DNA of 64,000 nt. Source: Siphonodentalium dalli (Eukaryota > Mollusca > Scaphopoda > Gadilida > Siphonodentaliidae). The notes beneath the pieces are model-generated. The model saw nothing but the letters and a program-made list of their open reading frames with translations. It was not told where the DNA came from and did no database searches. The first letter of the stretch is position 1. Every line of letters begins with the position of its first letter. A program made the position numbers and the translations under genes. The stretch covers positions 217,699,982 to 217,763,981 of the forward strand of contig CP136063.1 of NCBI GenBank assembly GCA_032622095.1, read 5' to 3'. This document shows positions 28,696 to 61,738 of the stretch, piece after piece.

Positions 28696-28784
28696 TCTGT
28701 CAGCCTATCTTATATCTCCTGCAGAATCACAAAGACAGAATCTGGAAGCTCTGTTTAACCCTTTACCCAACAGAAGGGCCCTGT

Positions 28785-28853
28785 GCCAATGCATTCTCTT
28801 ATATATGCGAGTCGACCATAGGTCGCCTCGCATATATAAGAGAATGCATTGGC
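28785..28853. repeat. 69-nt hairpin module (1 of 13)
   Basis: Starts GCCAATGCATTCTC and ends with its complement. Stem: 27 perfect pairs, one T/C mismatch, 5 more pairs, loop ATA. The central part reads GTCGACCATAGGTCGCC. Confidence 0.95.
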
Positions 28854-28931
28854 TTAACACATTAAAAATTATAAAATTGTTAAAGAATGTAAGAAAAAAT
28901 GGTAAAAAGTGTTAAAAAAAAGTTTGTTTAG

Positions 28932-29000
28932 GCCAATGCATTCTCTTATATATGCGAGGCGACCTATGGTCGACTCGCATATATAAGAGAATGCATTGGC
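28932..29000. repeat. 69-nt hairpin module (2 of 13)
   Basis: Reverse complement of the hairpin at 28785, followed by ACAGGG, which mirrors CCCTGT before the first hairpin. The pair is therefore itself an inverted repeat. Confidence 0.95.
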
Positions 29001-29153
29001 ACAGGGCATAACTGTAACCATCACAATGTGGTCAATGAAACGGTTCCAATGATATCCATATTTGTATGGTGTTATTGAGACAGACCGAAGATATTTTAGG
29101 CTGTTGAAGCTTTATTTGGGCGTTTTTGGCCGGTTTGTTGGGTAAAGGGTTAA

Positions 29154-30193
29154 GTTGAATATTTTAGGCAGAACTGTTTGAAATCTTTTGGTCTCGATAG
29201 TTTAAATTCCCAACCAATATTTAGAGTAATTATTTTTCGACAAAGATTATTGTAGAATTTAATGGTTATCAATTGAAATTCAGACTCAATGTGCAACATT
29301 CTCAATCTGTTGTTTATAACTACTATTTAATTTTTTTTGATGGGGAGGGGAGTTGGGGAGGGTGTTGTCGCCGTCTTGTTTGCGTGGACAATAGAAATCT
29401 ATCTGATTCATGAATGAGTTATTATCAGCCTGCCCTGGTGTGTGAATTCATAACTGTATACACTCTTATGACAATGTGTAGGTTTTCTATACAAAATGTG
29501 GAGCCCTGATACACAACCATTATTAAAATTTCATCTTAAAGACTTAAACATATTTGTGTAGTATATGTGTAGTTTCATATTTGTACACAAATTGTGTAAC
29601 AAGTTTTACACATAAATGTGTAAATTTGTACACATTTATACACAACTGTGTGCATAAAATCTACACATATCCCTTACACATTTTGTGTAGGTTCCTACAC
29701 ACAAAGTTCGTAGACAGTAAGTTCAGTAGTCCGACCTGTGAGTTTAGTATTAAAGATATATGCAGATTTATATGTTAAATATTTCATGGCGTGGTATGTA
29801 GTATTTTGTTCTGTACTGTGTGATGTTTTGTTTAAAATGAACAAACCAGGGTCGTGGCGTGATTGCATAATATTAGTATTATTACAAGAATCATAACAAG
29901 AGTCTAAAGGCAGTAATGAAAGTTGTAACAAATAAATCCTCATACCATACATAACATACATACATACATACCTACATACATAATAAAAGGTTCCGGCATT
30001 GACAATCGACATTATTGCGCTGAACTCTGACGTCACTGCGCGTGCCGATAATACACGCGTGTCTTTCTAGAATATATGAGGCCGGGTGTAGGTGCAAATT
30101 CTGTGATAAATATATTTGTATATTTTACAATGTTATACAAAGCATACCCAATGCATATACCAGTTAAGATGGAACCATTGCAGTACTTATTAA
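29154..30193. other. No gene; TGTGTA-rich zone and CATA microsatellite
   Basis: 29540-29710 is crowded with TGTGTA and TACACA phrases, giving many short potential stems. A (CATA)n tract lies at about 29943-29983. No coding region is supportable. Confidence 0.7.
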
Positions 30194-30219
30194 CCCTTTA
30201 CCCAACAGAAGGGCCCTGT

Positions 30220-30288
30220 GCCAATGCATTCTCTTATATATGCGAGTCGACCATAGGTCGCCTCGCATATATAAGAGAATGCATTGGC
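30220..30288. repeat. 69-nt hairpin module (3 of 13)
   Basis: Identical by eye to the hairpin at 28785. Confidence 0.95.
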
Positions 30289-30357
30289 TTAACACATTAA
30301 AAATTATAAAATTGTTAAAGAATGTAAGAAAAAATGGTAAAAAAAGATTTTTTTTAG

Positions 30358-30427
30358 GCCAATGCATTCTCTTATATATGCGAGGCGACCTATGGTCGAC
30401 TCGCATATATAAAGAGAATGCATTGGC
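30358..30427. repeat. 70-nt hairpin module (4 of 13)
   Basis: As at 28932, with one inserted A (ATATAAAGAG) bulging the stem. Confidence 0.95.
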
Positions 30428-30764
30428 ACAGGGCATAATTGTAACTATCACAATGTGGTCAAGGAGCCGGTTCCAATGATATCCATATTTGTATGGTTCT
30501 ATTGAGACAGACCGAAGATATTTTAGGCTGTTGAAGCTTTATTTGGCCGGTTTTGGCCGTTTTGTTGGGTAAAGGGTTAACTGCATGGGGGTTTATTTTA
30601 TTGGAACAAGATTAGAGAAATATAGCTATGATAACACTCACTGTCGTTTCACAACTATTATTATTGGGCAAACTTTATTTTCCAAAAATAATTCGTATGA
30701 TCATTGTATTGTTTTAAACTCCCCCATGTAAGATAACCTATTCAATAAAGTAATTAAAACGGTA

Positions 30765-30835
30765 TATAACTTTATAACTATATAACTATATAACTATATA
30801 ACTATATAACTATATAACTATATAACTATATAACT
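30765..30835. repeat. 8-bp microsatellite (ATATAACT)n
   Basis: About nine head-to-tail units, uninterrupted. Confidence 0.95.
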
Positions 30836-31059
30836 TTTTGTGAAGTAATGCATTACTATGAATTATATGTAATGCAAAAAAGGACCAATTACAAATCACA
30901 TTTAAATACTTCAGAACAAGAGCATCGCTATGGTGTGGCAAAATACGCCCTTGAGCCATTTCGAATTGTACTACCGCAAAATAAAATAATAATACGAGCT
31001 CACAAAGAATATCCGATATACCTTAAATTTCAATGCCAAAATGCGGTCAAATTCAGTCG

Positions 31060-31625
31060 AAAAATGGCCGTAACTCCAGGGGGGGGGGGGGGGGGGGGGG
31101 TCGGAAATTTTTTTCAGGCACGTATGGCATTTTTTCCCTTTCGATCATTTTTTGTACCCACCCACCCCCACCGCCAAATTATTTTCCGTTTTCGGCAGTT
31201 TTTTCCGACCATTTTTTGACACCCACCCCCCTTTTAACACTAAAACAGAGATTTGCGGGTGGAAATTCACTGTAAACAGCTGTATATGAATTTCTGTGCA
31301 TACTATTTATCATGGATGTTAACATTGACATGTAAATAGGAATGAGTCATTTTGAAGTCATTCGGGCAAAAAAACATGGCTGCCAGCGGCCATCTTGGAT
31401 TTCAAAATTTGCAACAAAATACAACACGATAACTGCCTGCAGTCAGTTTGCAGTTAGAATTACATTATTTCTCTCATTCAAAGTGGGTTTGAAGCCCAAC
31501 TCATTGCCAAAACACTAAAAAACAAGCAGGATTTTTTTTTTTAGTTGCGGAAAAAATTGCTTGTTGGTGGCTTTGACCACCCACCCACCCCGGCATACGT
31601 GCCGGAATTTCCCCCCCCCCCCTGG
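31060..31625. repeat. Foldback with G-run and C-run ends
   Basis: Left end has CCAGG then about 20 G, then CAGGCACGTATGGC. The right end has GGCATACGTGCCGG, then a C run (about 31610-31622) and TGG. The arms are diverged but mirrored. Several CACCCACCCCC runs lie inside. Poly-G/C tracts may be assembly-sensitive. Confidence 0.55.
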
Positions 31626-32105
31626 TAACTCATGTTAAAAATAATTGAACAGAACATATATTCGATCTTGGCCTGTAGTTTTAGCTGGGAAACACACATG
31701 CTAGCTTTTGTTCAGATAAAATAATCCAAACTGGAGTTAGCGGTCGGAAACTGAAATGTTATGAAATCGGTCAAATTCTAAGTTGAAAAAGGGCCCTAAC
31801 TCATGTGAAAATAATTGGACGGAACCCATATTCGAAATTGGTCTCTATCTTTAGCTGGAAATACACATACCAAATTTGGTTCCGATAATCAAATAATTAA
31901 AACTGGAGTTATCGATCGGAAACCATAAATGTCAACAGATTGTCAAATTCTAAGTCGAAAAAGGGCCGTAACTCATGTAAAAATAATTGGACCCATATTT
32001 GAACTTGGCCTGTATCTTTAGCTGGGAAATACACACACCAAGATTGATTCAGATCAAATAATCCAAACTGGAGTTATCGATCAGAAACCAAACATGTTAA
32101 CGGAC
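31622..32105 (+). repeat. Tandem repeat, three copies of about 171 bp
   Basis: Units begin at TAACTCATGT (31626, 31798, 31969) and share AACTGGAGTTA and AAAAGGGCC.TAACTC. The array ends in CGGACGGACGGACAG strings at 32102-32155. Such AAGGGCC.TAACTC repeats are common in mollusc genomes from general knowledge. Confidence 0.8.
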
Positions 32106-32339
32106 GGACGGACAGCCGGGCGCCCATACAAACAGCCATATACGGACGGACGGACAGACATACTGATGTCATAATACGACATTTTTCAAAAGGGTGTATA
32201 AAAAGTAATGCTTTGTAATGCATTCCATTAGACATTACCATTACCCCAATGCCTGTTAGTCGTAATTAATTTGGTAGAACGCCCCTCGCCGATGGCAATA
32301 ACGGTCTCGCAGAATCCCTGGCAATTTACTACATATATA

Positions 32340-32547
32340 CAGTAATGCCCTAAGTAATCGACTGCTTAAACACAGCAGAATTATGGATAACTTTTCAGGA
32401 TTTAGTCGGAAATATGGCTTGTTGCCATTCATCGGAAAGCTCCCCCGCTTTCCGATGAATGGCAACAAGCCATATTTCCGACTAAATCCTGAAAAGTTAT
32501 CCATAATTCTGCTGTGTTTAAGCAGTCGATTACTTAGGGCGTTACTG
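32340..32547. mobile_element. Full-length palindromic MITE family F, copy 1
   Basis: 208 bp that folds into one near-perfect hairpin of about 100 bp arms: CAGTAATGCCC ... GGGCGTTACTG, flanked by TA (32338 and 32548). TA target suggests Tc1/mariner ancestry. The loop is CTCCCCCG, so the arms are almost the whole element. A diverged copy is at 38781-38955. Confidence 0.85.
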
Positions 32548-33176
32548 TAACTGAAATTCGATCTCGCCGAGTAAAACAATGAATTTGCGGGTTCTTCAAT
32601 CAATTCTTTGGCATATTTGATAAGAAACCTCGTGTTGTTTATGAGAACTGCACGCATTAATCGGCTATGGACATGGCATGGGGTCTGGTTCTCGCTGATA
32701 ACATCCATGCAGCTGTACAAATTTGAAATAAATTCATTGTTCAAACAATTGTTTGTATTCTGAGCCAAACAAAGGATTTATTGACTAAACAGAAGACAAA
32801 CGAAACAATACGAAGACTATTATCTCATGATTAATTAATTATCAATAACTGTAATTAAAAGCTACGTCAATAATGTCTGTGCGTTTAACAAATTGTATGT
32901 AGTACATTGGATTATTCTCGACAGTGATATTTTGATCCATTCCAATTCATTGTATACATATATGAAAAATGCCATAATTGGTTCCCCAATCACGCCATAG
33001 TTATTAGAGAACAGATTTTGCTCAAGATGAGACACATCGTATATACAACGAATTAAAGCTTGAATCAATTCGTGCACGAATATTGACATTTTCTGTTTAC
33101 TGAGGACCAGGGTGACTGGTGCGTCATTTCTACAGCCCCACTCAGAGACACGTCGTGTTGGCTAGTAGCTATGGCT
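32548..33176. other. Unrecognised minus-strand frames
   Basis: An open frame of about 60 residues (minus strand, 32560-32768) reads MAQNTNNCLNNEF and then a charged stretch ending at the MITE. No family is recognised and coding status is doubtful. Confidence 0.35.
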
Positions 33177-33754
33177 ACGGACACACGTACCACAGGGGCA
33201 CCGGCATAGTAGGTATGGCAATTTATTATGGTGGAGTTTGGTGACAATTGGTCGTCATAATTCTGTGCCATGGCTAGCCATGCATGTTACCCACTGAATT
33301 TCCGCACAATGAGTCGATTGGACCAATTAACCCATTGCGTTTCACCAAGTTTGATCTCTACTCATTACGTTTTGCTACAGTGTATTCTCTACGATATATT
33401 AATTGCATGCGTATTAAGACAGTTCCATAACTGCGTGTTGTATTTTACGACGTTTAGATCTACGCATAATTCCGCTAACATTATCACGTGGGCCGATGAA
33501 GCAGTGTCGGAACTGTTGGAGGAAATGCAGCTGAGAGAAAGTGCATGTCTGGAATAAAACAAAGCGAACAATACAAGGACCAAATAAGAACAAGGATGAT
33601 TATAGCGAACTGTGGAATACTCATTTTGCGAGTATGCAGCGGGGCGACATGGCTAGCTATGGCATATTAATTATGACGACAAATTGTCACCAAACTCCAC
33701 CATAATAAATTGTCACCCCTACTACGCCATCGCTACTGTCGTACGTGTGTCAGC
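33177..33754. repeat. Foldback with arms of about 105 bp
   Basis: Left arm 33177-33280 and right arm 33647-33754 are reverse complements at roughly 85 percent (TTTATTATGGTGGAGTTTGG against CCAAACTCCACCATAATAAA; CCATGGCTAGCCATG near the inner ends). The loop of about 365 bp has no recognised content. Confidence 0.75.
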
Positions 33755-35593
33755 AACCAATGTATGAATGGGACGGTCTCAACATCTTTCAAGCGGGAGA
33801 TTATGCTACGTTTCGTTTAATTGTGACATTGTATTCTTACGTATCAATCAAGAAAGCACATGTGCACGCGATTAATTCAGAGTGAAGACATCATCATTGG
33901 TGATATACTCGAGGGTGTCTATTTACGATGTTTGGTTCTATTATGACATCACATACAGCGAATCCGCTAATTGTGGGTCAGTATTCTACAATGAACACAC
34001 ACTGCCTGATATAATATTACGTCAGAGTAAACGGAAGAGCGACTGGACATTCGGAAACTAGATGGGTGAGACCGAATGACCAGTCGCGAGTCCATTAACT
34101 GACTTAAAACACAGGTTTGGAATATATACCGATGAAATATCCTGATAAATCTCGACAAATACGTGAGACCGTTTAATGTATACAAAATATAGTCCTCGAC
34201 TGAGAACAAAGCCACGCACATTAACACGAATCGTGTGAATGTATTTCCATCGACATCCATCGAATACACACCCCACGAAAACTCTAAATGTGTTGTCCTA
34301 CGAGATATCCCATCGCTATAGCTCAATTTGACACGGCCAGCTTAGCCTTTCTACAATATCCTAAAACATTAAAGCTTCTCAAATCATCGGCATAGCCAAT
34401 AGAACTTTCACGAACTTGGACATTCCAACTACAGCTTTTACCGAACTCGGGGTCGCAGTACAACTTTAACGCGTACCAAAATAACCGGAAAAACCAATTA
34501 TCTATTTATAAAATCCACATGGGTCCACAGATTTCTAAAATTTGCCCAACAGTATACACCGGTGGCGTTAACTACAACATTTGTTTTGGCTGTAAATAAA
34601 ACGTACTATATAGGCGTAATATATACTGTCGACGCAACTATCTGTATTTTGGGCACGAATGCATTTTGGGATAGTTTTGACTCGCGAATTATCAAAGTAA
34701 TATCCTTTTGCAAGGAAGAATAACAGTAACTCTATTATGATGTGATGTGGTATGTTTTAATGTGTTAGATACAACTGGTATGTAAATTAACATGCTGACT
34801 TTTCTGACAATAAATTGTATTACGTGGGGTTTATAAGCACTAAGCAAATGTTTGTTATTGTTAGAAGTGAACTATTGCTCGATTGTGGGAATTCGTTGTG
34901 CATGTTGTGGGAGACATGACCGTTCCAGATTACGCGAAAATCGACTTGTGGTATAAAGTGCCCATTTGGAGAAATAGAAGGTCGATCTATAACAAAGGAG
35001 CTGGGTTTTATAATTTATCATTTCCTTCCAGAATCAACGGACAATGACCACGATGGGCACACCGCTTCACATGCTTATAGATTATATTAATTCACCCATA
35101 TGTTTGTTTTCACAGAGTTGTATATTATATATATATTAATTTATCATTTCCTTCCATAATCCACGAAACCGATGGGTAGGTCGTGTATATAGACAGGTTG
35201 TGGTTCGGATTCATGTGATAACGATAACTGAATTACTGCACACATAAAATCAAATCGCCGCGGGAATACAACATTTCTTCCATCGAGATCATTCTGACAA
35301 CATGAAACAATTTGGTCGGCAAAAAACTTACCATAACAATAGGTGACTTTGGGATGTCACGTGATATACATGTATAGGGCACAGGTTATTACAAGGTACA
35401 AGGTACATCTGAATTACGCTCTTTGAACCTAAATCGACTTACCAGATGTAGGCCCTTTATAATGTGTTTTCACAGTGGCCCGCGCCATAAAACTGAATAA
35501 TGCATATAAGTCCAATATGGGTTTATTTCAGAATAAAATAAGTCAGATATTAATTAACCTTTGTGAATATTTAGGTCCAATGTGAACCTATAT
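33755..35593. other. No gene recognised
   Basis: AT-rich. A 119-residue minus-strand frame (33967-34326) shows no motif. A short direct repeat, AATTTATCATTTCCTTCC, occurs at about 35011 and 35137. Confidence 0.5.
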
Positions 35594-35644
35594 GTGACCC
35601 GCCATATCAAATCCAGTCGTAAGTCGGGATTTTTTTTACCCTGT

Positions 35645-35713
35645 GCCAATGCATTCTCTTATATGTGCGAGTCGAACATAGGTCGCCTCGCATATATAAG
35701 AGAATGCATTGGC
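35645..35713. repeat. 69-nt hairpin module (5 of 13)
   Basis: As at 28785 with two substitutions (TATGTGCG and TCGAACATA). Confidence 0.95.
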
Positions 35714-35930
35714 CTAACAATTTTTTATCATTTTTTTTAAATAAATGTTTCTTACAATTTTTAGGACACAAAATAAAAAACATCCATTACCCTGCAGGGA
35801 GCCCCACACATATATAGAAGCATATAGAAGAGTGTCGTCTGCTCATGTTTGTCTGGGGCTCTGTATGGGTGAAATTATAAAATTGTTAAAGAATACAAGA
35901 AAAAATATTAAAATTGTAAAAAATTGTCAG

Positions 35931-35999
35931 GCCAATGCATTCTCTTATATATGCGAGGCGACCTATGGTCGACTCGCATATATAAGAGAATGCATTGGC
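35931..35999. repeat. 69-nt hairpin module (6 of 13)
   Basis: Identical by eye to the hairpin at 28932. Confidence 0.95.
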
Positions 36000-36203
36000 A
36001 CAGGGTAAAAAAAATCCCGACTTACGACTGGATTTGATATGGCGGGTCACATTTGCACGAGGATATGTTACACTATTCTTTGGGCTGTGTGAAAGACCCC
36101 CAAATTCATCACTACAACACAACAGCTTCTTACTATGCAGCGCAAACAACTGGAACAACACGACAGACATATGCATCGAAACAGCAGATGTGAATGATTT
36201 TAA

Positions 36204-36638
36204 AGGTACTCAATCCGATTCGATGTTCCTCATATCATCAGATTCCAACAACAACAATTTTTGAAATGTCGTTTCAGTTATCAGAATCGATTAATTGTCC
36301 AAAAATTATGCTGGCCACAGTCAATCATTGTATAAAATTGCCCAAAACCTGTTATTTATCAACATTTTCGTCAACGAAATTTTGCCCGTTTGTCAAATAT
36401 CTGACACAAAAAACCCACTTGATTTTAGAGTTATCCATCTTCATCTGCAATTTGGTCAGCTAAATTTCTCTCGTTGACTGTTTACTGGGTCACATAAAAA
36501 TTAAATTATAGATTTCAAACATCGATATCTGATCACTCTGAGCTTTGATGTGTTGGTTCCTCGACTCGAATCAAATATTTTCTACCCCCGAAGCCAAGGA
36601 AATAGTAATTTGAAAGCGTTAAATCGGATTGAGTACCT
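36204..36638. mobile_element. TTAA-flanked MITE family C, complete copy
   Basis: 435 bp with TIRs AGGTACTCAATCCGAT and its complement, TTAA at 36200-36203 and 36639-36642. Reference copy for the family (others at 7260, 16688, 56638). No ORF of a transposase. Confidence 0.88.
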
Positions 36639-36642
36639 TTAA

Positions 36643-37002
36643 ATATAAGCCGAACGACACTTGAGGGGAAGACCCAACACATTTAATTAAATAAATAACG
36701 AAAATAAAATATGTATGTATGTATTGTTAAATGTGCGGCACATATATAAGCATGTCGCCAGATGCCACACATAGTGAAAAATGTACTTGGAACTAAAGAA
36801 GAGGTCAGTCAGTACACGCCTGTATGCTTTCTTCCAGGGAAGATCACAATCATCACATGTAAGTAAAAGTTAGTAAATCAAAGGTTAATTACGTCTTATA
36901 TAGGCTTATATATAAGCCCGCGTGCCTGTTGTCTGGCCCTTTGCAATTTATTTTATTTGCAATAAACCTATTTACAAAAAATCACACGTATATAGCCTAT
37001 AT
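36643..37002. other. No gene recognised
   Basis: AT-rich spacer between two MITEs, with a short TATGTATGTATG run near 36710. Confidence 0.5.
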
Positions 37003-37053
37003 GTGACCCGCCATATCAAATCCAGTCGTAAGTCGGGATTTTTTTTACCATGT

Positions 37054-37124
37054 GCCAATGCATTCTCTTATATATGCGAGTCGACCATAGGTCGCCTCGC
37101 ATATATATAAGAGAATGCATTGGC
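37054..37124. repeat. 71-nt hairpin module (7 of 13)
   Basis: As at 28785 with one extra AT step (CATATATATAAG). Confidence 0.95.
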
Positions 37125-37327
37125 CTAACAATTTTTTACAATTTTAATAACTTGTTCTTGTATTCTTTAACAATTTTATAATTTCACCCATACAGAGCCC
37201 CAGACAAACATGAGCAGACGACACTCTTCTATATGCTTCTAAATATGTGTGGGGCTCCCTGCAGGGTAATGGATGATTTTATGTCCTAAGAAACATTTAT
37301 TTAAAAAAAAAAAAAATTTTTTTTTAG

Positions 37328-37396
37328 GCCAATGCATTCTCTTATATATGCGAGGCGACCTATGGTCGACTCGCAAATATAAGAGAATGCATTGGC
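37328..37396. repeat. 69-nt hairpin module (8 of 13)
   Basis: As at 28932 with one substitution (CGCAAATATAAG). Confidence 0.95.
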
Positions 37397-37447
37397 ACAG
37401 GGTAACAACAAATCCGACTTACGACTGGATTTGATATGGCGGGTCAC

Positions 37448-37847
37448 ATATAGCCTATTTTAACCTGCCAATCACCTGTACTAATATACAGGAATATAAT
37501 TCCAAGATGCAACGCCATGCTATTTAGCAGGAAGGTTTCTTGAGTATAGAGGTGCATTCCTACACACCACCGATATTACGACGGGCGGAGTATATAACAC
37601 TTGTAAGGCGGTAAAAATCAATGCCCCCAGTACTGAGAACAATGTTGTCACCGGTTGTGTGGAGGAGGTCCTTCTTCTCCCGTACTCGGTACGGCTCGGG
37701 AACCATCTCATAACTCCTAATACGCCGAATCGATGGTAACAGTGTGGTGTCGTTAGTCGGAGTGTGTGCAGTTTCGAAGTTTATTTCTAATTCGAAAGGA
37801 AGCTAGTAGCTGCTGTTACATATCGCCAAGTGGTGAGTTTTTATTAA
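37448..37847. other. No gene recognised
   Basis: Spacer of mixed composition; the frame at 37520-37711 (-) shows no motif. Confidence 0.5.
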
Positions 37848-38313
37848 CCCTTTGAGTGCCAGGTCCGATTTTTGTATCAAGCCATATACCCTGTGCCAAT
37901 GCATTCTCTTATATATGCGAGTCGACCATAGGTCGCCTCGCATATATAAGATAATGCATTGGCCTAACAATTTTTCATACTTTGTTATTATGTTTTACAA
38001 TTTTTTACAATTTTATTAATTTTTTCTTATTCTTTATCATACTTATTTTGTAGGTTTAGTGCCAGGGAATCTTACGTTTTTCATGGGCATCAAAATTATT
38101 ACTATGAATACTTGGTGATAGTTTTGAGTTATAACATGCTTATAAGGTTTTATCCAGTTTGTTTTTAAATTCGCTATAGCATGCTTAAGCATACCCAAAC
38201 AAAATTCGACCAAAAAAAAATAAATCTTAAAACAAAAAAAACCATTATTTTTTAATTTAACTCTACAGACCGTAAATTAGGGCCGATAAGATCGGCCCCC
38301 GCCACTGAAAGGG
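37848..38313. mobile_element. Hairpin MITE type 3, copy 1 (CCCTTTGAGTGCCAGG end)
   Basis: 466 bp with TTAA at 37844-37847 and 38314-38317. Left end CCCTTTGAGTGCCAGG; right end CGCCACTGAAAGGG with GGGCCGATAAGATCGGCCC beside it. One hairpin only (37895-37963), preceded by CCCTGT. The A/T core and TTTTGTAGGTTTAG match the inverted relative at 60381-60617. It carries about 250 extra bases beyond that point. Confidence 0.82.
37895..37963. repeat. 69-nt hairpin module (9 of 13)
   Basis: As at 28785 with one substitution (AAGATAATGC). Confidence 0.95.
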
Positions 38314-38317
38314 TTAA

Positions 38318-38780
38318 AGAATCATAATGTATATCTTTCGTGAAACGCATACTCTTCAAAAGTTCATTTATACATAATCTCCGATATTATAGTTAAGAAT
38401 ATACTTTTCGTTTTTTTAATTTAAAAAAAAAAATATTTATTGACACTTAGTCTATATAAATGAACATATTCAGACATTTAATATACAGCATGATGATAAT
38501 AACAACAATAACATCCTGGTGTTTGTGGGGGGGGGGGGGGGACTCTGGCACGAAAATAGCACACGCCTTACACACATTGAAATCTAATAGATATCTCATA
38601 TTTTTTTTTTAACACAGACTATGTGTGGAATATCACCAGAAATGATTTATAATATGTTTTAAATATACATGTAATTTATAGTTTCTGACATAAAAAAAAT
38701 TGCCTCTATCAGTGCCCGGAATTTATATAGCGTTAATTCGACAATCATCAGCAAGTGAAAACGAATAAAATCACAAACTA
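38318..38780. other. No gene; one G run
   Basis: AT-rich with several A and T runs and a G run at about 38527-38540. Confidence 0.55.
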
Positions 38781-38955
38781 CAGTAATGCCCAAAGTAATT
38801 GACCACTTAACCACAGCAGAATTATGGGTATTTTTCAGGATTTAGTCGGCTATTGCTTTCCGATGAATGGCAACAAGCCATATTTCCGACTAAATCCTGA
38901 AAATTTACCCATAATTCTGCGGTGGTTAAGTGGTCAATTACTTTGGGCATTACTG
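38781..38955. mobile_element. Palindromic MITE family F, copy 2
   Basis: 175-bp relative of 32340-32547: CAGTAATGCCC and GGGCATTACTG ends, flanking TA, and the shared GCAGAATTATG and AGGATTTAGTCGG blocks. The left arm has lost about 35 bases, so the hairpin is asymmetric. Confidence 0.85.
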
Positions 38956-39082
38956 TAGTTATTTGTGTATATATTTTTGGAGTTCGCCTGAGCACAGGCT
39001 TGTATATGCTACTCCTATTCATGCATGTTACAACTCTATTCTGAAATGACTAAATAATAAATGACGAATACTTTAAATTTAT

Positions 39083-39108
39083 TAACCCTTGGCACTGAAA
39101 GGGTTAAA
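39083..39108. mobile_element. Shell of hairpin MITE type 3 (ends only)
   Basis: TTAACCCTTGGCACTGAAAG followed by GGTTAA: a left-like and a right-like tip of the type 3 element joined with no interior, still between two TTAA. Either an internal deletion or an abortive product. Confidence 0.55.
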
Positions 39109-40340
39109 GATGGTGTTTCTCTTCCCTGAACATTCTGTATATTTTTGGGTTAAACAAATAATACTTATGGGTCCGAGAGAAAATTCAACAAAAACTGGGA
39201 CAGACAATATTGCTATTTTTAGAACATTACACTCTTCAGTTGTGATATGTGTTTGTCTTTCGAATGCAAATTCATCTTTTTTTCAAGTGAAGTATATGTG
39301 TAACAGCGGATTATTTTGTGTTTGTTTTGTGGGCATACTGATGCAAACATGCCTCCAACATTTGTTGTTGTTGTTGGAAGTGTTGCCGGGAAGAGATAGA
39401 ACATCTTTAACTGATTCAACTTCCACACAGTTCCGGCCCTGATACAAGCCACCCACATTGCAGTATACATTTGTGTCTTATGTATGTTGTGTTGCGTCTT
39501 ATGTATACTGTGTAAAACCTATATCGGCCTCTGTCTCCCTCTCTATCTTTATTTTTCTTCAACTCCCAGAATTCCCGTATACCACGAGCAGAGTTATTGA
39601 AGTCAGATAAATGTATCATCATCAGATGCGAACGCTCTTTATTGTTACCATATTCGGAAAAGGCAAGCAATGGACGCGCTTTATTGCTCCATGATATAAG
39701 GACGCTAGGTTAAATTGGGATATGTTAAAGACACGTATGCCATTCGCGATTGGCATTGCTGTCAACTGAGCGTTCACAGTACACACAATCATAGTCTACA
39801 GTATTAAATAGCGGCTATGTTGGGACTCTATAGATCATAGTATAAAAAATATACCTCGTCTGTGCAATTAATTGTCTTCAGCAGATATCAACTGCATAAT
39901 TATGCTGATCTATTCGTTCCACGGTATTCAGTAATGATATACAAAGGTCCAATAATAACCTTACACCATATAGCGGATGTATCTTTAATTGAAAATCAAA
40001 AACAATAATTATGCAAATTAGCAATTGTTACGAAACTGTAGGGTTTACATAATAAGTGCTAATAGGAAACTATTAGAGAGCTGTGCGTGGAATCTCTGCA
40101 CGTTGATTACTACGTTCTGTGTTTGCTGCTCTTTGCTAAGCGGGCAACAACTTTCGAAATGTTAACCTCGAGGTAGACAAGTGATTTGCAGTCCGCCACG
40201 TGACGCACCCTCAGAATATAAGTGGATGTAATGTAATAATTAGGATAACAATGAATATTGTTTCCCTCGACGTAATTCTCATATCATAATTATGTTTTAT
40301 TTCGCTAGCACCATATGGGCATTTCGTGCAATTCATATAT
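39109..40340. other. No gene; fragment of repeat family B
   Basis: 39628-39690 resembles repeat family B (ACGCTCTTTATTGTTACCATATTCGG). The rest is AT-rich without recognised features. Confidence 0.5.
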
Positions 40341-40389
40341 GTGACCCGCCATATCAAATTTAGTCGTAAGTCGGGATTTTTTACCCTAT

Positions 40390-40458
40390 GCCAATGCATT
40401 CTCTTATATATGCGAGTGGACCATAGGTCGCATCGCATATATAAGAGAATGCATTAGC
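40390..40458. repeat. 69-nt hairpin module (10 of 13)
   Basis: As at 28785 with three substitutions (GTGGACC, GCATCGC, CATTAGC) that are not mutually compensating. Confidence 0.93.
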
Positions 40459-40676
40459 CTAACAATTTTTTTTAATTTAAAAAAAATAAATGTTTCTTAC
40501 AATTTTTAGGACATAAAATAAAAAACATCTATTACCCTGCATGGAGCCCCACACATATATAGAAGCATATAGAAGAGTGTCGTCTGCTCATGTTTGTCTG
40601 GGGCTCTGTATGGGTGAAATTATAAAATTGTTAAAGAATACAAGAAAAAATTATTAAAATTGTAAAAAATTGTTAG

Positions 40677-40745
40677 GCCAATGCATTCTCTTATATATGC
40701 GAGGCGACCTATGGTCGACTCGCATATATAAGAGAATGCATTGGC
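40677..40745. repeat. 69-nt hairpin module (11 of 13)
   Basis: Identical by eye to the hairpin at 28932. Confidence 0.95.
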
Positions 40746-40784
40746 ACAGGGTAAAAAACGACTGGATTTGATATGGCGGGTCAC

Positions 40785-41260
40785 ATATAGGCTTTGTCGA
40801 GACGACATGAGTCCCAGCGTGGCAGGATAACACATCGAGTTATATCCTACGACGATGACACCATATATCAGAGGGCTTATATTGTCGTGTGTGATGATGC
40901 TTTCATTTTATAATATTTACATACAAAGTGTGATTATCACTAAATCCAGCATTCCGATTGGTCGGCGCCCACGTGATTATTTGCAGTTATTTCTCGGTGA
41001 ACGCGCAAGAGCTCATAACTGCAGCCCCATAATTACATCACCGCGTCATAGTTTTCGGAAAGAATAACGCGTAATGTTTTGGGCGCATTTGGACTCGCGC
41101 AGGATTGACTTAATAAGTCATCTGGTTTCAATATAAAGAAAGTGTTCCTGTTAACTTTTGCCAAGGGTGCTATGTGATATTTTGGGCTGGTTTTGTCACG
41201 ATACACTTTTCGATTTAAATACATTTACAAAAGCGGCTTTTTCGCTAAATGTATATAAAT
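40785..41260. other. No gene recognised
   Basis: Mixed-composition spacer with no repeat partner in the window. Confidence 0.5.
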
Positions 41261-48171: not shown

Positions 48172-48285
48172 AATGAATAAACACATGTTTTGTTCACTGA
48201 ATTTGTTGGTCAAAATCTTTAATAATATATCATCAAAGAACATAATCACTATTAACAATTTCTGGACAACCCGCCCTTATTTATC

Positions 48286-51360: not shown

Positions 51361-51539
51361 TACATATATCCAGAGCAGTATTCTCTGTTCCAAAGAGTTA
51401 GCAAAAAAATTGTAACACTTAGTGATTAACCATGTTTCTTAATCTACTGACTACTACATGTTTCATTCTCGTTGTCCCTGTACCTTCTGGGGCATGACAA
51501 ATTCATTTTAAATGATGCACTGTAATATGGAATTTTGCT

Positions 51540-54719: not shown

Positions 54720-54835
54720 TCTTCGGAATAGCGAACCTTCGGAATAGAGAACCTTCGGAATAGCGAACCTTCGGAGTAGTGAACCTTCGGAATAGTGAAC
54801 CTTCGGAATAGCGAACCTTCGGAATAGAGACATGT
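54720..54835 (+). repeat. Minisatellite TTCGGAATAGCGAACC
   Basis: About seven units of 16-17 bp, a clear cousin of the TTCGGAGTTATGGGC array at 27240-27508. Confidence 0.9.
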
Positions 54836-54853
54836 TCCCTGTTCAAGACTAAG

Positions 54854-55316
54854 ATGGCATTTTTTGGCAGCAGCTATATCAGACGACTACGTGATTTCGA
54901 CCACATTATGACGCCTGTCAAAAAACGTTCTTTTGTAAAGGTGGAACAAAAACAACGCTCTCAATCACCACAACCAAACTGAAACAACTAGAAAGATGGA
55001 ATCATGACGTCGTTTTCATACAGTTAGGCGGCAACGATATATGCGAAGGATCAAAACCAGCAGCCATCGCAAAGAGGCTGATCAAAATAATCAAACGTCT
55101 CAACAACGGCAAAAGGGAGATATGGTTTGGGGAAATTCTCCGTCGAGGAAATTTTGAAAAAGCTGGCAGTATATCAATGGGGGACTTCGAAGAGCAGAGA
55201 ACGAAGATTACATCTCTACCAGCCTGAGAACAAAGATCAGAATATATCGGAATCGTCCGATATAAAAGGAGAATTGAACGTATTCTGAGAGGTGCCATCC
55301 AGCACCGAACATGAAA
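54854..55316 (+). pseudogene. SGNH-hydrolase-like fragment
   Basis: Starts ATG at 54854 reading MAFFGSSYIRRLRDF, with GSS after a short hydrophobic start as in SGNH block I. After one frameshift (near 54940) it reads HDVVFIQLGGNDI, which is block III (GGND) on a buried strand, then an Ala/Lys helix and IWFGEIL. A stop falls near 55227; the continuation in another frame has no visible DxxH block. It resembles the SGNH domain of Penelope ORF1 at 13.6-14.4 kb only in the family blocks, not closely in sequence. The parent element is unknown; it may have been captured by the nested element. Coding loss is certain; family assignment is moderately sure. Confidence 0.6.
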
Positions 55317-55955
55317 CTGTATGCCGCATGTTTGTTTTATTCTGTGAATTTAATGTCTTTATATTATTTTATGCGTTGTGATTAAATTTATTTTTATCAT
55401 GTATTTCACTTTCTAAATTATTATTTCCCCCAAAAACCTCAAATGATACAAAACACCCCAGACTAATAGACTAGAGTCGTCAGTTAGTTAATCCGATTAC
55501 CTATACCGCTAGGCACATAAGCCGCTTACACCTTTTAATTGGAGTCGGTCGTTTACACTTTATAGTGTGTTTCAGAACGAAAAAGTTGAATAAAATCAAC
55601 AAATTTGTTAATTTAAAAACAATTCAAACGTCAAAGTATTCCATGTCCCATGGTGCAGTCCGGACATATACACCAAATTTCATTAATATCCATTGAGAAA
55701 CAACGGACCAAACGCCACATAACACCCCGTTTACACCTTTTATTTGGAGCCGGCCTCGGCCTCGACATGCACTTTATAGTGTGTCCCTAATTCCGCCACC
55801 GAAACAAGAAACCACAGTGAATTTGTCCGGCTATTTGTTCGGGGCGAAAGTTGACATTTAGCAATCGTCACCCTCGTTGAATCGGCTTACGAGTGACGAC
55901 AATCTCACACGACTTCACCGTCGAGTACTTGTTGGGTTGAAGTTTGTTATAATGT

Positions 55956-56475
55956 TCACGCTGGGGAATCACGTGGTTTCGAAGTTGGTGAGTACCACGC
56001 ATTCAAAATGTGCAAACGCACAAAAACATGATATGCCTACATGGGGAACTGACACAAAACATAGCATGTTGACTGTTACGACGCATATGCTAGTTTATTT
56101 TTAAAACAAGTTGATACCTTATTTGTCCGGAAATACTCAGTTGTTTTCTATAACAATCTGGCCAAAGTTGCCAGTCGGAGGTTCGTGCAACACACCAGTC
56201 CATACAGAGTCCATGCATCTAGGAAAATCCTCCGATCGACTGACAACTTTGGTAAGACTGTTGGAGCAAACAGCTGTGAGTTTGGACACAAATGAGGTAG
56301 GCTACCGTATCAGCTTGTTTGAAAAATAATAAAAACATATGCTCGTAGCTGCCAAAATACTATGTAATAATACCCTTTCCATATTTCCACATTTCTGGTC
56401 GAGTTTTCGAACACTTCGGCCATTTTGAATGCGTGGTACTCATCAACTCGAAACCACGTGATTCCCCACCGTGGT
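55956..56475. mobile_element. Foldback MITE with 10-bp target duplication
   Basis: Flanked by GTTATAATGT at 55946-55955 and 56476-56485. Arms: TGGGGAATCACGTGGTTTCG ... GTACCACGCATTCAAAATG at the left, the complement at the right. A second inner pair is CCAAAGTTGCCAGTCGG / CGACTGACAACTTTGG (56161; 56234). 9-10-bp duplications suggest a MULE-like transposase. Confidence 0.75.
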
Positions 56476-56637
56476 GTTATAATGTGATAATTAATGGTTA
56501 TGTGACTTTACCACCCAGCGGAGATAACCACGCCTCGCATATATTGCCGGACTTGAGTATAGCGGGTTAGACAACACAACTGATATGACTGACCGCAAGG
56601 AACGACGTGTTTCAACTTTGGTGGACTTCGATGGTCC

Positions 56638-57028
56638 CCATATCACCAGATTCCAACAACAACAACATTTTTTGAAATGCCGCTTCAGTTGTCAGAATCG
56701 ATTAATTGCCCAAACAACAATGCTAACCACATTCAACTATAGCATTAAATTGACAAAAACCTGTTATTTATCAACTAATTGTTCAACGATATTTTGCCGG
56801 TTTGTCAAGTATCTGACACAAAGAGCCACTTGATTTTAGAGTTATCCATCTTCATCCGCTATTTGGTCTTCTCGTCCACTGTTTACTGGGCCACTTAGAA
56901 TTAAAATAAAAGATTTCAAACATCGATATCTGATCATCCTGAGCTTTGATGGGTGGGTTACTCGACTCGAATCAAATATTGTTTTACCCCAATCCCCCCC
57001 CCCCCCACCGAATCCAAGGAAATAGTAG
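56638..57028 (+). mobile_element. TTAA-flanked MITE family C, copy without tips
   Basis: Aligns along most of 36204-36638 (CAGATTCCAACAACAACAA, AGAGTTATCCATCTTCATC, CTCGACTCGAATCAAATATT) but lacks the AGGTACTC tips. A C run of about 13 bases is inserted near 56995. Confidence 0.75.
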
Positions 57029-57166
57029 GGAATAGCCAGGTACGAGACTAGATGCGTATATTGACTAATTCTGGGAACAAGCGTGTGAAATGAACGTCCG
57101 TGGTATAACAGGGGTCGACCTGCAATAGTCACGCACTCCGCTGCCCGCCCCTATACACCGACGCTA

Positions 57167-57319
57167 TATACGCGCCTGCTTCGCGTTAATGATACTATAA
57201 TAAGGACAGGGGAAACTATACAAATCCCCCGTTTTACCATCGCTCGGTAAACGGGGGATTTGTATATATAGTTTCCCTTGTCTGTTTTAGGCCTATATAA
57301 CGTGAAGCAGGAGCGTATA
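57167..57319. repeat. Palindrome, repeat family D complete copy
   Basis: Arms 57167-57236 and 57248-57319: CCTGCTTC.CGTTA, GGAAACTATA and ACAAATCCCCCGTTTTACC mirror each other around CATCGCTCGG. The left arm recurs singly at 11372-11481. Confidence 0.8.
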
Positions 57320-57559
57320 AGTAGTACGTGCCACTCGTTGGGTCCAATCGTAAAATTGGGCATAAGTGTATTTTGAGTATGTTAGTACTATAGTACTATA
57401 TATTTGAGAATCGTTGATAAAAATGGGCGTAAGTATATTTACGATATTTGAGCTTCACATGTGTGAAGTTGTAATCTCGTGCGTGTCTGCAAATAATCTT
57501 AACATAGAGCAGAGCGTCATGTATATTGTTGGTTCATCGTGTGAAGTTGCTTTGTAATC

Positions 57560-57805
57560 TCGGCCGACACATCAACTAAATAATCTCAGCTTAAGACGGC
57601 TAAATTATGTGTTTAAAGGTTCAGACAGGCATACATCTTACCCAAATCTCGATCGACTATTAAATGTCTGCAACCGAATAATCTCAGCGGCTTAACCAAA
57701 TTATGTGCTTAAAGGTTCAGACAGGCATACATCTTACTGAAAATATTCACGGCCGATTATTGTGAAGGAATGGCGGACACATCAACTAAATAATCTCAGC
57801 TGTTT
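57560..57805 (+). repeat. Tandem repeat of about 105 bp
   Basis: AAAGGTTCAGACAGGCATACATCTTAC occurs at about 57615 and 57711, and CACATCAACTAAATAATCTCAGCT at 57566 and 57778. Two and a half units. Confidence 0.75.
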
Positions 57806-57991
57806 ATCGCGTTAATGCTAATACGTCACATAATCTTATCACACGTACATATTAGCAGCTTATCGAACTATGCATACATACGCTCAAATAATATGTACAA
57901 GTGGGTATACATGCAATACTTGAAGTTACTTTGATGTTATTGTTATTTTGAACTAACTGAAAACATGATGATGCAAGAAATTTTCAATTTG

Positions 57992-58610
57992 TTATATGCT
58001 TATCACTGTACCAATTGATTGTTTGTAATCAACGACAAAATGACCAACACGCCGAGAATGATTCATACCATGCTGATGATAAACACTGGAATGTATGCAT
58101 TCATACTGATTGTGACAATGGCCAAAGAGAATCATTATTCTTCTTCTCTTATAGTTTAGTTTTATCGATATCACTGAATATATGCTTGAAGATTGACCAC
58201 TGGTTCAAATTTAACGGAATACCTATAATCGTCGGAGTGTTATTCACAACTCGCCTAATGTCTGTATAAATGTGTCCTTGATTATTACATACTGTAACAG
58301 TAATGTTTGATCGTATTGTCCACTTTTTCACGAAAACACACGGGTGTTGTTCGTAATCATTGGGGTGTGACATATTAGTATGAAGTAATTCATGGTCAAC
58401 TGACTCACGTGGTATCTTCTTTGGAACTAAAATAAATGGTAGTGACACAGTGATTACCATAATAGTAATTCCTATCCATTTAATGAGATTCATATGTAGA
58501 CGACCACGTTCTGTTTGAAACGTATTCGTCAAGGTACCTGTTCTATTATCCATGATTGTAATTGTTCTCGTGTACAGCTTACTCTTATTAATTTTGATAT
58601 CTGGCGACAT
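57992..58610 (-). pseudogene. Unrecognised family G protein with a PC4-like region, copy 1
   Basis: Minus-strand frame from 58610 (153 codons), then a shift near 58150 into a frame reading GHCHNQYECIHSSVYHQHG to 57992. A short basic N-terminus precedes one hydrophobic segment (WIGITIMVITVSLPFILV, about residues 45-63). A later stretch reads FVKKWTIRSNITVTVCNNQG, then DIRR.....PTIIGIPLNLNQW. The spacing V-V..G...-DIR...-P...GI.L...QW resembles the single-stranded-DNA-binding PC4/p15 fold, but a membrane segment in front would be odd for a nuclear coactivator, so this is only a suggestion. The GHC.YECIHSSV motif recurs at 62182. No neighbours share an operon-like link; this is eukaryotic. The frameshift points to a pseudogene, unless an intron removes it. 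Confidence 0.45.
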
Positions 58611-59691
58611 CCGACTCTAAAATCCACGAATTAAATTTGTCTGACCATGAATGCCAATGCACCATGATAGTTATCGATGTCAATAATGCGTTTCGTTGAG
58701 ATCTTGATTGAGTTGATGACAATATTCTGACAAAATTCTTTTCGATCTATAAAATGCTGCTTTTTATTATCGACATGATCACTTGCTCACCTCTTGCTCA
58801 GTTGCTCTTTTTTCCTTGCTCACTTGCTCTTTTTTCAAGGAGCGCAAGTAACTCTGGAAGATAAGAAGGAGATATTTGCAGAGCGATGTGAACAGATAGA
58901 CCGAGACACGACATCAACAATAAGCTCAAAATGGAAAAACCGGGAGATAATTTCCAAGCTCATAAAACTATGGGATGAAGAAAAGTTTCATATTCGGACA
59001 AAAATCAACATCAATGCGAGAAAAAACTGAAGTGGTTGAAAAGCCAAAGCCAAACTACTACAGGCATTAACAGAAGCACGGGCATTGATGCTAACATCAT
59101 AGAAATTATGAAATTCTAATGATGCTTGTATCATTTTGCTGGCCACTAAAATACATGTCGCTTGAGCCATATACGGTACTATATGGAGATAGGAATGCAG
59201 TGGGTCTAATCACCACCGTGATGACCATTGATTAATGAGACCTTTACACGAACTTGCATCACGCTTTAAGAAGCTTCTGTTTATATATATTTTTTTACGC
59301 ATACACAAGCAATCGATATCACTCTATGAATAGCGGTTAAAAATAGCAAGCATTGGAGATATAAATATCGATGACTGGCCTTTAAATCTTCGTAACGCAT
59401 GGTTTAAAGAGGTTTGGTGAATGCAATCCAGCGCAGAAATTGCACGAGATAAAATACATATATATGCGAACTATATATATGTGTGTTCATTTCAACGAAC
59501 TTCTCCACTTGATAGCGCCGGTTTGTCGAGTTAGTTAAAACCCGAGAATCGGTTGTATATGGAGAACTGTTCAGTGAATTCATTATACCTTTCAGTTTTG
59601 GAATCACCATGTTCGAGTATTTACAAATCAGATGAGGATAATTCCAACATTCGTCGTGGCACGTCGATAATTACAAACATCACGCAACACA
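58611..59691. other. Upstream region of the HD gene
   Basis: Contains a short CACTTGCTC / TTGCTCTTTTTTC repeat (58780-58840) related to the minisatellite at 63.3 kb, an unrecognised 78-codon frame (58794-59030) and AT-rich sequence with TATATATA near 59458-59490. The gene's promoter probably lies here but no element can be assigned. Confidence 0.45.
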
Positions 59692-59918
59692 ATGTCGCAG
59701 GCTTTAAAGAATTTGTGGAACAATGCCAACGAACATTTCGGCGTTTCGGAGAAGAACATAGATTTTTGGTGGCAGAAAATATGTGAAAGATACGCTGAGC
59801 CACAGAGATTTTATCACACACTGGACCATGTCAGCGATATGTGCATGCAATACACACAGCATTGTTTTGGCTTGGTAAAGCAACAGCCTCATGTCATTTG
59901 TGCAATATTCTTTCACGA
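59692..59918 (+). CDS. HD-superfamily phosphohydrolase-like protein, exon 1
   Basis: The clearest host gene in the window. ATG at 59692 has A at -3. Residues 26-46 read WWQKICERYAEPQRFYHTLDH, a match to the start of a conserved metal-dependent HD-domain family (COG4339 type: W..I..RY.EP.R.YH.L.H). Residues 66-75 read PHVICAIFFH. The exon ends after GA, at donor GTGAGT (59919); the first base of exon 2 completes Asp76, giving the HD pair. His42, His46 and His75-Asp76 are candidate metal ligands. The substrate is not known; bacterial relatives are annotated only as predicted phosphohydrolases of about 200 residues. Cytosolic location is likely, as no signal peptide is visible. The natural-looking N-terminus argues against a missing upstream coding exon. 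Confidence 0.85.
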
Positions 59919-60380
59919 GTGAGTTGTTTTGCAATGGAAGACTTGAACTCACACAGGTCTATATATATATATGGTCAGGGGCAACCATATAGTCCATATG
60001 ATGCATGACGTGGCTACAGGGTCACCATTGATTGGGACCCACATTTCAAAGTTGCGAATTCGATTTTCGATTCATTTGCGCCATCTTGGGTTGCAATTTT
60101 ACAATAGGTACCTCGTGCAGGCTTTCAAACTGTTGAAATTTCCAACCTCATATGGCCATTTCAGTCAACACATTAACTCATTTTCATTATAATTACCATG
60201 CTTTCTCAAACCACCTATTGTCACATCCTGGATGTAAATTCACATTTTTAGTCAATTAGTTGCAATGGAATTGATTTCCACCGCAAGTGGCTTTAAATGT
60301 TAGTTTTACTATATCAGTTGTGGAATACACTGGAATTAGCTAACATATGTCAATTAGACCTGCAGATAAGAGAGGTTTAA

Positions 60381-60617
60381 CCCTTTGAGTGCCAGGGGCC
60401 GATCTCATCGGCCCTAAACCTACAAAATAAGTCTGTTAAAGAATATAAGAATAAATTATTAAAATTGTAAAAAATAAAAAAAAAAAAAAAAAAAATTGTT
60501 AGGCCAATGCATTCTCTTATATATGCGAGGCGACCTATGGTCGACTTGCATATATAAGAGAATGCATTGGCACAGGGTATATGGGTTGATACAAAAATCG
60601 ACCTGGCACTCAAAGGG
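60381..60617. mobile_element. Hairpin MITE type 3, copy 2 (inverted, in the HD gene intron)
   Basis: 237 bp, TTAA at 60377-60380 and 60618-60621. Ends CCCTTTGAGTGCCAGG and CCTGGCACTCAAAGGG, a perfect 16-bp TIR. One hairpin at 60503-60571, followed by ACAGGGTATATGGGTTG, which mirrors the left side of the copy at 37848. An A run separates it from AAAATTGTAAAA. Confidence 0.88.
60503..60571. repeat. 69-nt hairpin module (12 of 13), intronic
   Basis: As at 28932 with one substitution (CGACTTGCATA). It would be present in the primary transcript of the HD gene. Confidence 0.95.
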
Positions 60618-61393
60618 TTAACAATGATACTGAATTTCCAACTGCACCCCCATTCTGAGAGAAATGAGCTCTTGGTGAGAGAATACTCAGAATAATTAAA
60701 CTGGAAACACACATACTGACAATGATGTAGCATAGGGGTGTTTAGGTGTGTCTCGCTGCTAGCTATAGCAAATAAAATATTTTTAAGTTGGAAAATCAAC
60801 TGTCTATTTTAACTCAAACACTTCTAAGTTGAACATCCCAGCCATTAGTTGAAATAATGGCTCTATTGATTAAAATTTAATGCAAATTTATTGATTTCCA
60901 AGTAAAATAAATCCAATATTAATACAAATTCTTAGTATGAACTTCTGACTTGGGAGACCAAAATGGAATTTTCTTATCAAACAGATGGTTGGGAATTGAA
61001 TATTTCTTAATATGGTTGAAACATTTTGAATACAGGACAAGAAGATTCAAGTTAATTAGCGGGGAGTAAAAGAATTTCCCAAAATGGGAAATTTGGCTGA
61101 CAAGGAGGGGGATTCATGTAGCAGCGTAGTTAACTTGTCACCTGTAGGTGGGGGTAATCAATTCACACCTCCTCACCTAGGAGTTTTAATATGGAGTTTA
61201 GGATGATTTAGTTAGGATTCATACTTTTGGCCTCCAATGTTATCAATTAAAGTGAATTATATGTTCAAACCTATATTGTTGTTATTCTGAAAGAGTTACT
61301 AATTTTGACCGTTGAAACCAGGATCGTTCCTTAATGTGAATTTTGGCCTTCAATATATATTCACTATTTTGTTGTATTTTTACTCATTTTCAG

Positions 61394-61481
61394 TGTCATC
61401 TATGACCCAAAGGCTGGAAATAATGAGGAAGCTAGTGCAGATCTCTTCCTACAATATGTAAAGGAATGTTGGGAAGCAAAG
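61394..61481 (+). CDS. HD-superfamily phosphohydrolase-like protein, exon 2
   Basis: 88 bases after the acceptor CAG. With exon 1 this gives 315 nt, exactly 105 codons, so the exon ends in phase 0 at AAG before donor GTATTA. It reads DVIYDPKAGNNEEASADLF and then LQYVKECWEAK. The family pattern here is FHD.VYdP....NE..SA, so Asp76, Tyr79 and the Asn-Glu pair are all kept. The protein would still lack its C-terminal half (about 90-110 residues), including the second Asp normally needed in HD sites. I found no matching third exon in the remaining 2.5 kb; it should lie past the right edge unless the gene is truncated. Confidence 0.85.
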
Positions 61482-61688
61482 GTATTAAAATTCTCCAACC
61501 ATAGCTCTATTAACTACATGTATGGGCATGTGAAGGTCCTTAGGTATTGATTGAAAGCCATTGAAGCACCTGGATATGAAAATTTGGTGGAATTATCAAA
61601 GTAAGAGTTGATTGAGTAATTTTCGATGTCAGTAAAAATATTAATCCTTCCATGACTGGAACTTCCTGAAATATTGCAAAAATCCTGT

Positions 61689-61738
61689 GCCAATGCATTC
61701 TCATATGGAGCCTCGCATATATAAGAGAAAACATTGGC
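61689..61738. repeat. Shortened hairpin module (13 of 13)
   Basis: GCCAATGCATTCTC, then ATATGGAGCCTCGC, then the right arm with two changes (GAGAAAACATTGGCC). The left stem has lost about 20 bases. Preceded by CCTGT but with no recognisable MITE ends; inside the presumed second intron of the HD gene. Confidence 0.85.

Follow-up and report, generated by a model that had tools for sequence, protein, structure and literature searches.

A hairpin-core module common to transposon families with different ends in the Siphonodentalium dalli genome

Miniature inverted-repeat transposable elements (MITEs) are usually classed by their ends, on the premise that each family follows a single transposase. 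In a 64,000-nucleotide (nt) stretch of the Siphonodentalium dalli genome (C3:217699982-217763981 of a 2.23 Gb, nine-contig assembly; hereafter the window), one near-perfect 69-nt hairpin recurs inside MITEs with different ends, which we group by those ends into families A, B, C and D; we lean towards a single, old lineage of hairpin-core-hairpin elements that changed its ends on a few occasions and with every change founded a large MITE family. The closest described systems are compared here as excerpts of the literature present them. The terminal inverted repeats (TIRs) of piggyBac elements measure about 14 bp and go with TTAA, and many bee elements start with CAC (PMC10140906). Like piggyBac-type MITEs, A and C are short and TTAA-flanked with 14-16 nt TIRs starting CCCTT, D has similar ends and piggyBac genes are abundant in the genome; unlike them, our elements contain a 69-nt near-perfect hairpin inside the ends, which is common to B, a family that is not TTAA-flanked. 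AgaP2-P12MITE of Anopheles gambiae is likewise a composite MITE from two sources, for which ectopic gap repair and en-bloc transposition were proposed (PMC1562414), but its two ends come from two P element subfamilies, whereas here one core lies under four end sets of two kinds. The highly conserved domains of short interspersed nuclear elements and the V domain in the MER6 MITE (PMC6887750) also represent one internal module with differing mobility parts; the module described here consists instead of paired palindromes, belongs to DNA transposons and, once inserted, decays no differently from the sequence around it. Repetitive hairpin and double-hairpin elements resemble it as short repeated hairpins that are sometimes paired, although they are described mostly from mitochondrial or plastid DNA, whereas ours lie within TTAA- or TA-flanked MITEs on chromosome-size contigs. 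Spy transposons (PMC4482050) make no target duplication, and the inner unit here is without a consistent one, yet Spy prefers AAATTT while the inner unit is flanked by GGG/CAT, AAAA/TCTT or TTA/TAA. In open-licence PubMed Central text, covered mostly at listing level, we found no described element of such a build, and the literature there on nested, chimeric or end-swapped MITEs gave no match to it.

A search of the window with GCCAATGCATTCTC, allowing up to 2 mismatches, returned 27 matches (shuffled sequences gave a mean of 0.46 and at most 3), of which 26 are the paired arms of 13 hairpins and one stands isolated at 24465. Twelve of these hairpins are full copies of 69-71 nt and the copy at 61689 is a decayed 50-mer, which agrees with the 13 occurrences that a sequence-only reading of this stretch had reported. 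The hairpin has the sequence GCCAATGCATTCTCTTATATATGCGAGTCGACC-ATA-GGTCGCCTCGC...GAATGCATTGGC, and the predicted DNA fold of one full copy with its flanks reached -36.3 kcal/mol, compared with -6.9 for shuffles (z -14.8). As that reading had also noted, CCCTGT/ACAGGG continues the mirror: it adjoins the outer side of all 13 hairpins with at most one change. The asymmetric centre has the same orientation in 12/12 full copies, and flip-flop termini like those of parvoviruses were ruled out on this ground. All 12 full hairpins reside in seven complete elements with three end types, A and B elements having two hairpins each and C elements one.

28755..29153, + strand: element A1, with TTAA, TIR CCCTTTACCCAACA, hairpins 28785-28853 and 28932-29000 around core 28854-28931, a long right arm and TTAA.
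30190..30580, + strand: element A2, built as A1, with hairpins 30220-30288 and 30358-30427.
35593..36051, + strand: element B1, with 46-nt TIR TGTGACCCGCC..., hairpins 35645-35713 and 35931-35999, and a core of 217 nt.
37002..37448, - strand: element B2, its core inverted relative to B1, with hairpins 37054-37124 and 37328-37396.
37844..38317, + strand: element C1, with TTAA, TIR CCCTTTGAGTGCCAGG, a single hairpin 37895-37963, a right end with its own palindrome 38280-38298, and TTAA.
40340..40785, + strand: element B3, with hairpins 40390-40458 and 40677-40745.
60377..60621, - strand: element C2, with a single hairpin 60503-60571, an interior shorter than that of C1 and its own palindrome 60396-60414.
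61641..61738, + strand: decayed D left end and hairpin, 61641-61688 matching the query D left end at 90%, followed by the 50-nt hairpin 61689-61738.

In B, the outer 46-nt TIR runs into CCCTGT and then into the hairpin. The flanks differ within each of the families A, B and C in the window, so the seven elements represent separate insertions; six of the seven lie within 11.6 kb (p 0.005 under uniform placement). The three unrelated end sets around one hairpin were thus recovered as previously described, and D adds a fourth, since the hairpin at 61689, formerly taken for a stray, carries the left end of this family.

The families also differ in their target-site flanks. Among fetched loci with exact ends, TTAA stood on both sides of 28/30 A copies (27/29 with distinct flanks) and of 8/8 C copies, and several blast matches to D begin at TTAA. 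B copies showed a 2-bp repeat in 8 of 11 distinct cases, compared with 4.0 expected from re-paired flanks, namely TA in five, TT in two and AA in one. The TIRs start with CCC in A (CCCTTTACCCAACA), C (CCCTTTGAGTGCCAGG) and D (CCCTTYCATGAC), those of A and C being 14-16 nt long. Judged from sequence, the A, C and D ends look piggyBac-like and B, with its 2-bp, mostly TA, flank, may be a TA-type family. The TTAA flanks of A and C against the 2-bp flank of B indicate that two kinds of ends carry one module. We had considered the hairpin as a piggyBac internal binding repeat and dropped this idea, as C has its own palindrome beside the TIR.

The hairpin is very abundant in the genome. An exact 33-nt half hairpin has 123,016 copies (61,607 + 61,409; reversed control 0), the A left end together with the adjoining start of the hairpin 38,839 exact copies and a 26-nt B arm 18,051. 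In 16 spread 10-kb samples we counted 29 hairpins of all ages, present in 8 of the 16, or about one per 5.5 kb. The loci compared comprised the 20 best matches to A, 20 10-kb stretches unselected by content (4 of them adjoining the window), 53 loci from the start of the list of exact half hairpins on contig C1, with most tandem arrays passed over, 12 of 48 SSTA sites (two G/C, TA, CCCTGT) and two stretches at B arms. Nine loci were excluded as flank duplicates (L001, L003, L042, L047, L065, L066, L068, L069 and L079), and L081-L092, which are piggyBac loci, were kept out of the hairpin set. From the first 40 of the 53 half-hairpin loci, 33 remained after dropping seven duplicates and 29 of these classify as A, B, C or D; the unclassified ones are L044, which reads as a rearranged A copy, L049, L058 and L060. 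By eye, the remaining 13 are A, B or C, with L093-L095 (one array) being C with other sequence beyond.

Several of these loci show further rearrangements. At about 0.73-0.93 Mb of contig C1, half hairpins are regularly spaced, by about 14.56 kb and by about 11.2 kb, and large tandem arrays seem to contain elements there. L058/L069, L059/L068, L060/L066 and L061/L065 have the same elements and flanks at 1.7-1.8 Mb and 3.5-3.7 Mb of contig C1 in opposite orientation, suggesting a large inverted duplication or an assembly artefact; similarly, A1 recurs with its array flank on contig C9 (L001; 98% over 1012 bases) as a segmental or assembly duplicate. L118 is a 282-nt B element with TA at both flanks that has lost, by internal deletion, the greater part of the left hairpin as well as some of the core. 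In L080 and L119, similar GC-rich sequences containing GCCGCC repeats interrupt hairpins at B ends close to the loop (GAGTCGAC); the interior of L119 has a 71-codon open frame that reaches the end of the stretch and gave 0 Pfam matches.

D can be told apart by its ends and by its hairpin. Its left end reads TTAACCCTTCCATGACTGGAGC...AAAACCCTGT-hairpin and its right end TTAACCCTTTCATGACGGGAGC...AAGAYCCTGT-hairpin. In the loop region, most D hairpins have TCTCCC-ATA-GGGAG and A, B and C hairpins TCGACC-ATA-GGTCG, and D-right hairpins mostly come with GCCAGTGC...GCACTGGC. Two loci, L045 and L076, combine D ends (beginning CCCTTYCATGAC...) with a hairpin of the A/B/C type, and their cores consist of irregular tandem units of 30-40 nt. 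A 23-nt string from this unit, searched with up to 5 mismatches, gave 4 matches in the core of L076 and 7 in that of L045, and one each in the cores of A1, B3 and C2 (0, 2 and 4 mismatches, respectively); at the same threshold there were 0 matches in a classic D core and in a shuffled control, and 15 in the whole 200-kb sample, elements included. L036:190-700 is a divergent A copy whose 245-nt core has three unit matches and extra sequence, and is perhaps an older form of A.

The hairpins had been described as far more alike than the ends, which holds between families and fails within them. Over hairpin and CCCTGT, A differs from B1 and B3 at 0/75 positions and from B2 at 1/75, whereas in the core 16-18 of 61-65 aligned positions differ between A and B1 or B3 and 18-20 of 62-65 between A and B2, the alignment of these A/T-rich cores being uncertain, most of all for element C1. 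The hairpin consensus is identical in A, B and C while the cores have diverged. Within A, B and C, in contrast, the pooled divergence was 70/3225 for 47 hairpins not chosen by identity and 39/1901 for the arms (p 0.84), or 37/2896 and 28/1713 (p 0.37) without hairpins of more than three differences, which are partly rearranged. From a total of 148 hairpins, this comparison leaves out 12 unclassified and 8 rearranged or truncated ones, the identity-chosen copies and D, with some partly rearranged ones retained. In D, the left hairpin differed at 52/610 positions and its arm at 31/370, the right hairpin at 31/403 and its arm at 24/263. Once inserted, hairpins and arms decay alike, which means that the hairpin is under no special conservation; the decay looks neutral. 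An 11-fold contrast between hairpins (8/3036) and outer arms (106/3554) in 22 A copies had suggested strong conservation of the hairpin. We rejected it as ascertainment bias, because these copies (A1, A2 and the 20 best matches to a hairpin-rich query) were ranked by similarity to that query and the contrast is gone in the 47 hairpins not chosen by identity.

How one module came to lie under several sets of ends can be explained in different ways. The CCCTGT-hairpin-core-hairpin-ACAGGG unit might be a TA-targeting transposon that nested independently in A, B and C hosts, akin to the repeatedly nested transposon proposed by the sequence-only reading; the CCCTGT boundary is equally sharp in every family, and the T8A/TA8 flanks of the unit in B are those expected from a TA duplication in the centre of a T8A8 palindrome (C also has TA). 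Such flanks can, however, also be plain mirror symmetry, and the idea that B arose by insertion into a palindromic host was rejected when the exact empty palindrome gave 0 matches in the genome. The unit is flanked by GGG/CAT in A and by AAAA/TCTT in D, with neither TA nor a direct repeat. Among 56 family ends in the window plus 200 kb (264 kb), 54 have a hairpin within 450 nt inward and the other two, both D-right, lie beside decayed hairpin sequence; no intact hairpin-free host was present among the 56, all found with ends of hairpin families as queries, so that hairpin-free families with other ends would escape. The unit as a TA transposon was likewise set aside on site counts that do not clearly favour TA, with 48 SSTA sites against 35 SSVA sites (two G/C, then AA, CA or GA). 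Copies outside the families exist but are few: the non-family loci L024, L058, L049 and L060 have TA before CCCTGT (or CCATGT) and unlike sequence beyond, and 4 of the 12 fetched SSTA sites (L107, L108, L112 and L117), sites chosen for their TA, have unlike sequence directly outside. The other 8 prove to be slightly altered copies of B or C, among them L116 with a B-like left arm and a right arm that is not B. Altogether, we consider a nested transposon unlikely. Still less probable is a continual exchange, through template switching or conversion at the palindrome, that homogenizes the hairpins of different families. The identical A, B and C hairpins beside diverged cores would fit such exchange, as would the rearranged hairpins of L054 and L064 and a tandem repeat of about 520 nt (L022:8740-10000) with a B arm fused to the hairpin and core of a D-type element. 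Yet none of the 10 substitutions in the window (8 within the 12 full hairpins and 2 in the adjoining hexamers) is common to two copies, hairpins diverge like arms both in A/B/C and in D, and D hairpins have not been homogenized with the others. Across the loci less the nine duplicates, moreover, the end pairs were A-L/A-R in 34 cases (about half from the set of best matches to A), B/B in 11 and D-L/D-R in 5, with 0/50 mixed; four further pairs have one unclassified end, of which L021 reads as D, L036 as A, and L024 and L058 as a B core with other outer sequence. The conversion or template switching suggested earlier is, as a frequent process, not supported by these counts, which fit best with a few rare end replacements in the past. 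The units of L022 join at B and D hairpins, the one case of joining seen, and suggest recombination at the palindrome.

It is also doubtful that the hairpin was kept because its transcript or its DNA fold acts, for instance as a source of small RNAs or as a cruciform that binds protein. The DNA fold is stable, and 22 hand-picked hairpins showed changes on both sides at pairs 5/65, 24/46, 30/40 and 31/39, with 24 both-sided cells compared with 11.7 in shuffles, a covariation score of 0.130 compared with 0.078 (0/500 shuffles as high), and a T.C mismatch at 28/42 kept in 21 of the 22. Most of this covariation is nevertheless a single split between D and A/B/C, whose variants account for the changes at 30/40, 31/39 and 5/65, with 24/46 changed in two rows. 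Both-sided changes affect 4 pairs, which is not above the shuffles (5.1), and further pair types are no more numerous than in shuffles either (19 compared with 19.0). Decay after insertion looks neutral, none of the 8 hairpin substitutions in the window is compensated on the opposite arm, and palindromes may also stay symmetric through hairpin-templated repair. A search of the whole window against Rfam returned 0 families at gathering score, and in 28700-30600 all of the 55 matches with E values of up to 1 stayed far below their own cut-offs. Finally, a single family whose ends have merely decayed apart, under which the earlier proposal would have fallen, is scarcely credible and is refuted by our data. 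The ends of A, C and D do share the start TTAACCCTT, but by eye they are unlike each other beyond the first bases, B has no TTAA, and each family's arms agree with its consensus at 94-100% in A, B and C and at 91-92% in D, leaving four end sets with two kinds of flanks.

We therefore return to the single lineage with replaced ends. Under this proposal, a non-autonomous lineage of hairpin, A/T-rich core and hairpin, bounded by CCCTGT/ACAGGG, would have persisted through several replacements of its outer ends. D, with TTAA and CCCTTYCATGAC... ends, would be the oldest form seen, because D copies lie at about 8.5% from their consensus compared with about 2% for A, B and C, and because L045 and L076 have D ends. 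Elements like these two, with D ends, the younger hairpin and a core of repeat units, would be intermediate, and from such stock A and C (with other TTAA/CCCTTT ends) and B (with TGTGACCC ends) may have arisen. A separate transposase presumably mobilizes each end set in trans, a piggyBac-like one in A, C and D and one of TA type in B. Amplification would have followed in every founder and brought A and B to no fewer than ten thousand ends apiece. The replacement itself may go back to rare events, of repair or of template switching, while an excision gap was being filled; an origin from ectopic templates in gap repair has been proposed for P-element MITEs in the excerpted text of PMC1562414. 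A first look at the genome gave 649 candidates for the piggyBac domain PF13843, of which 116 were scored, most of the best with open frames. In the piggyBac neighbourhoods at C1:161101192 and C5:214834034 we noticed by eye a candidate TTAACC... end followed by a small palindrome.

Several points weigh against this history, in addition to the reach of the end queries noted above. The search for an autonomous partner gave none: A, C and D ends are absent from the neighbourhoods, about 1.4 kb to either side, of 6 PF13843 domains out of the 649 candidates. The lone D copy that passed a strict two-end search had ATAA/TTAA at its flanks. The direction from D to A, B and C is drawn from divergence and two loci. 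Moreover, unrelated ends abut the unit at one and the same base (CCCTGT) in each family, a precision beyond what random repair would predict.

Other features of the window concern neighbouring repeats. Palindromic elements starting CAGTAATGCCC lie at 32338-32549 and 38776-38960, with complementary arms of 103 nt (99%) and 60 nt (95%), respectively; the second stands directly after TA, and they are perhaps a TA-type MITE family without the hairpin. The sequence at 39082-39107, TTAACCCTTGGCACTGAAAGGGTTAA, is 18 bp flanked by two TTAA and is perhaps a remnant of a C-like end or an excision trace. An inverted repeat at 22139-22189 and 22932-22982 has an inner end that is again palindromic (TATTTGCGCTTAAGCGCAAATA), with related palindromes repeated inside. 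Just left of A1, at about 27.6-28.7 kb, there is a tandem array with matches at 30-bp spacing. Of ten open reading frames in the window compared with Pfam, a reverse transcriptase gave the single match above cut-off. Exact searches of collections of viral and genome contigs returned 0 matches.

Within one genome, a core of apparently one descent thus has four or more sets of ends and two kinds of flanks, at very high copy number. It is possible, though we would stop short of calling it probable, that such a core switches its mobility system, the cassette having repeatedly taken ends of different superfamilies (piggyBac-like TTAA and TA-type). If so, the lineage could outlive a dead transposase under another one and in this way would have reached well over 100,000 hairpin copies, and the precise joint at CCCTGT would point to the palindrome itself as the place where new ends are joined. 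The survival of MITE lineages beyond their transposase thereby becomes a testable question.

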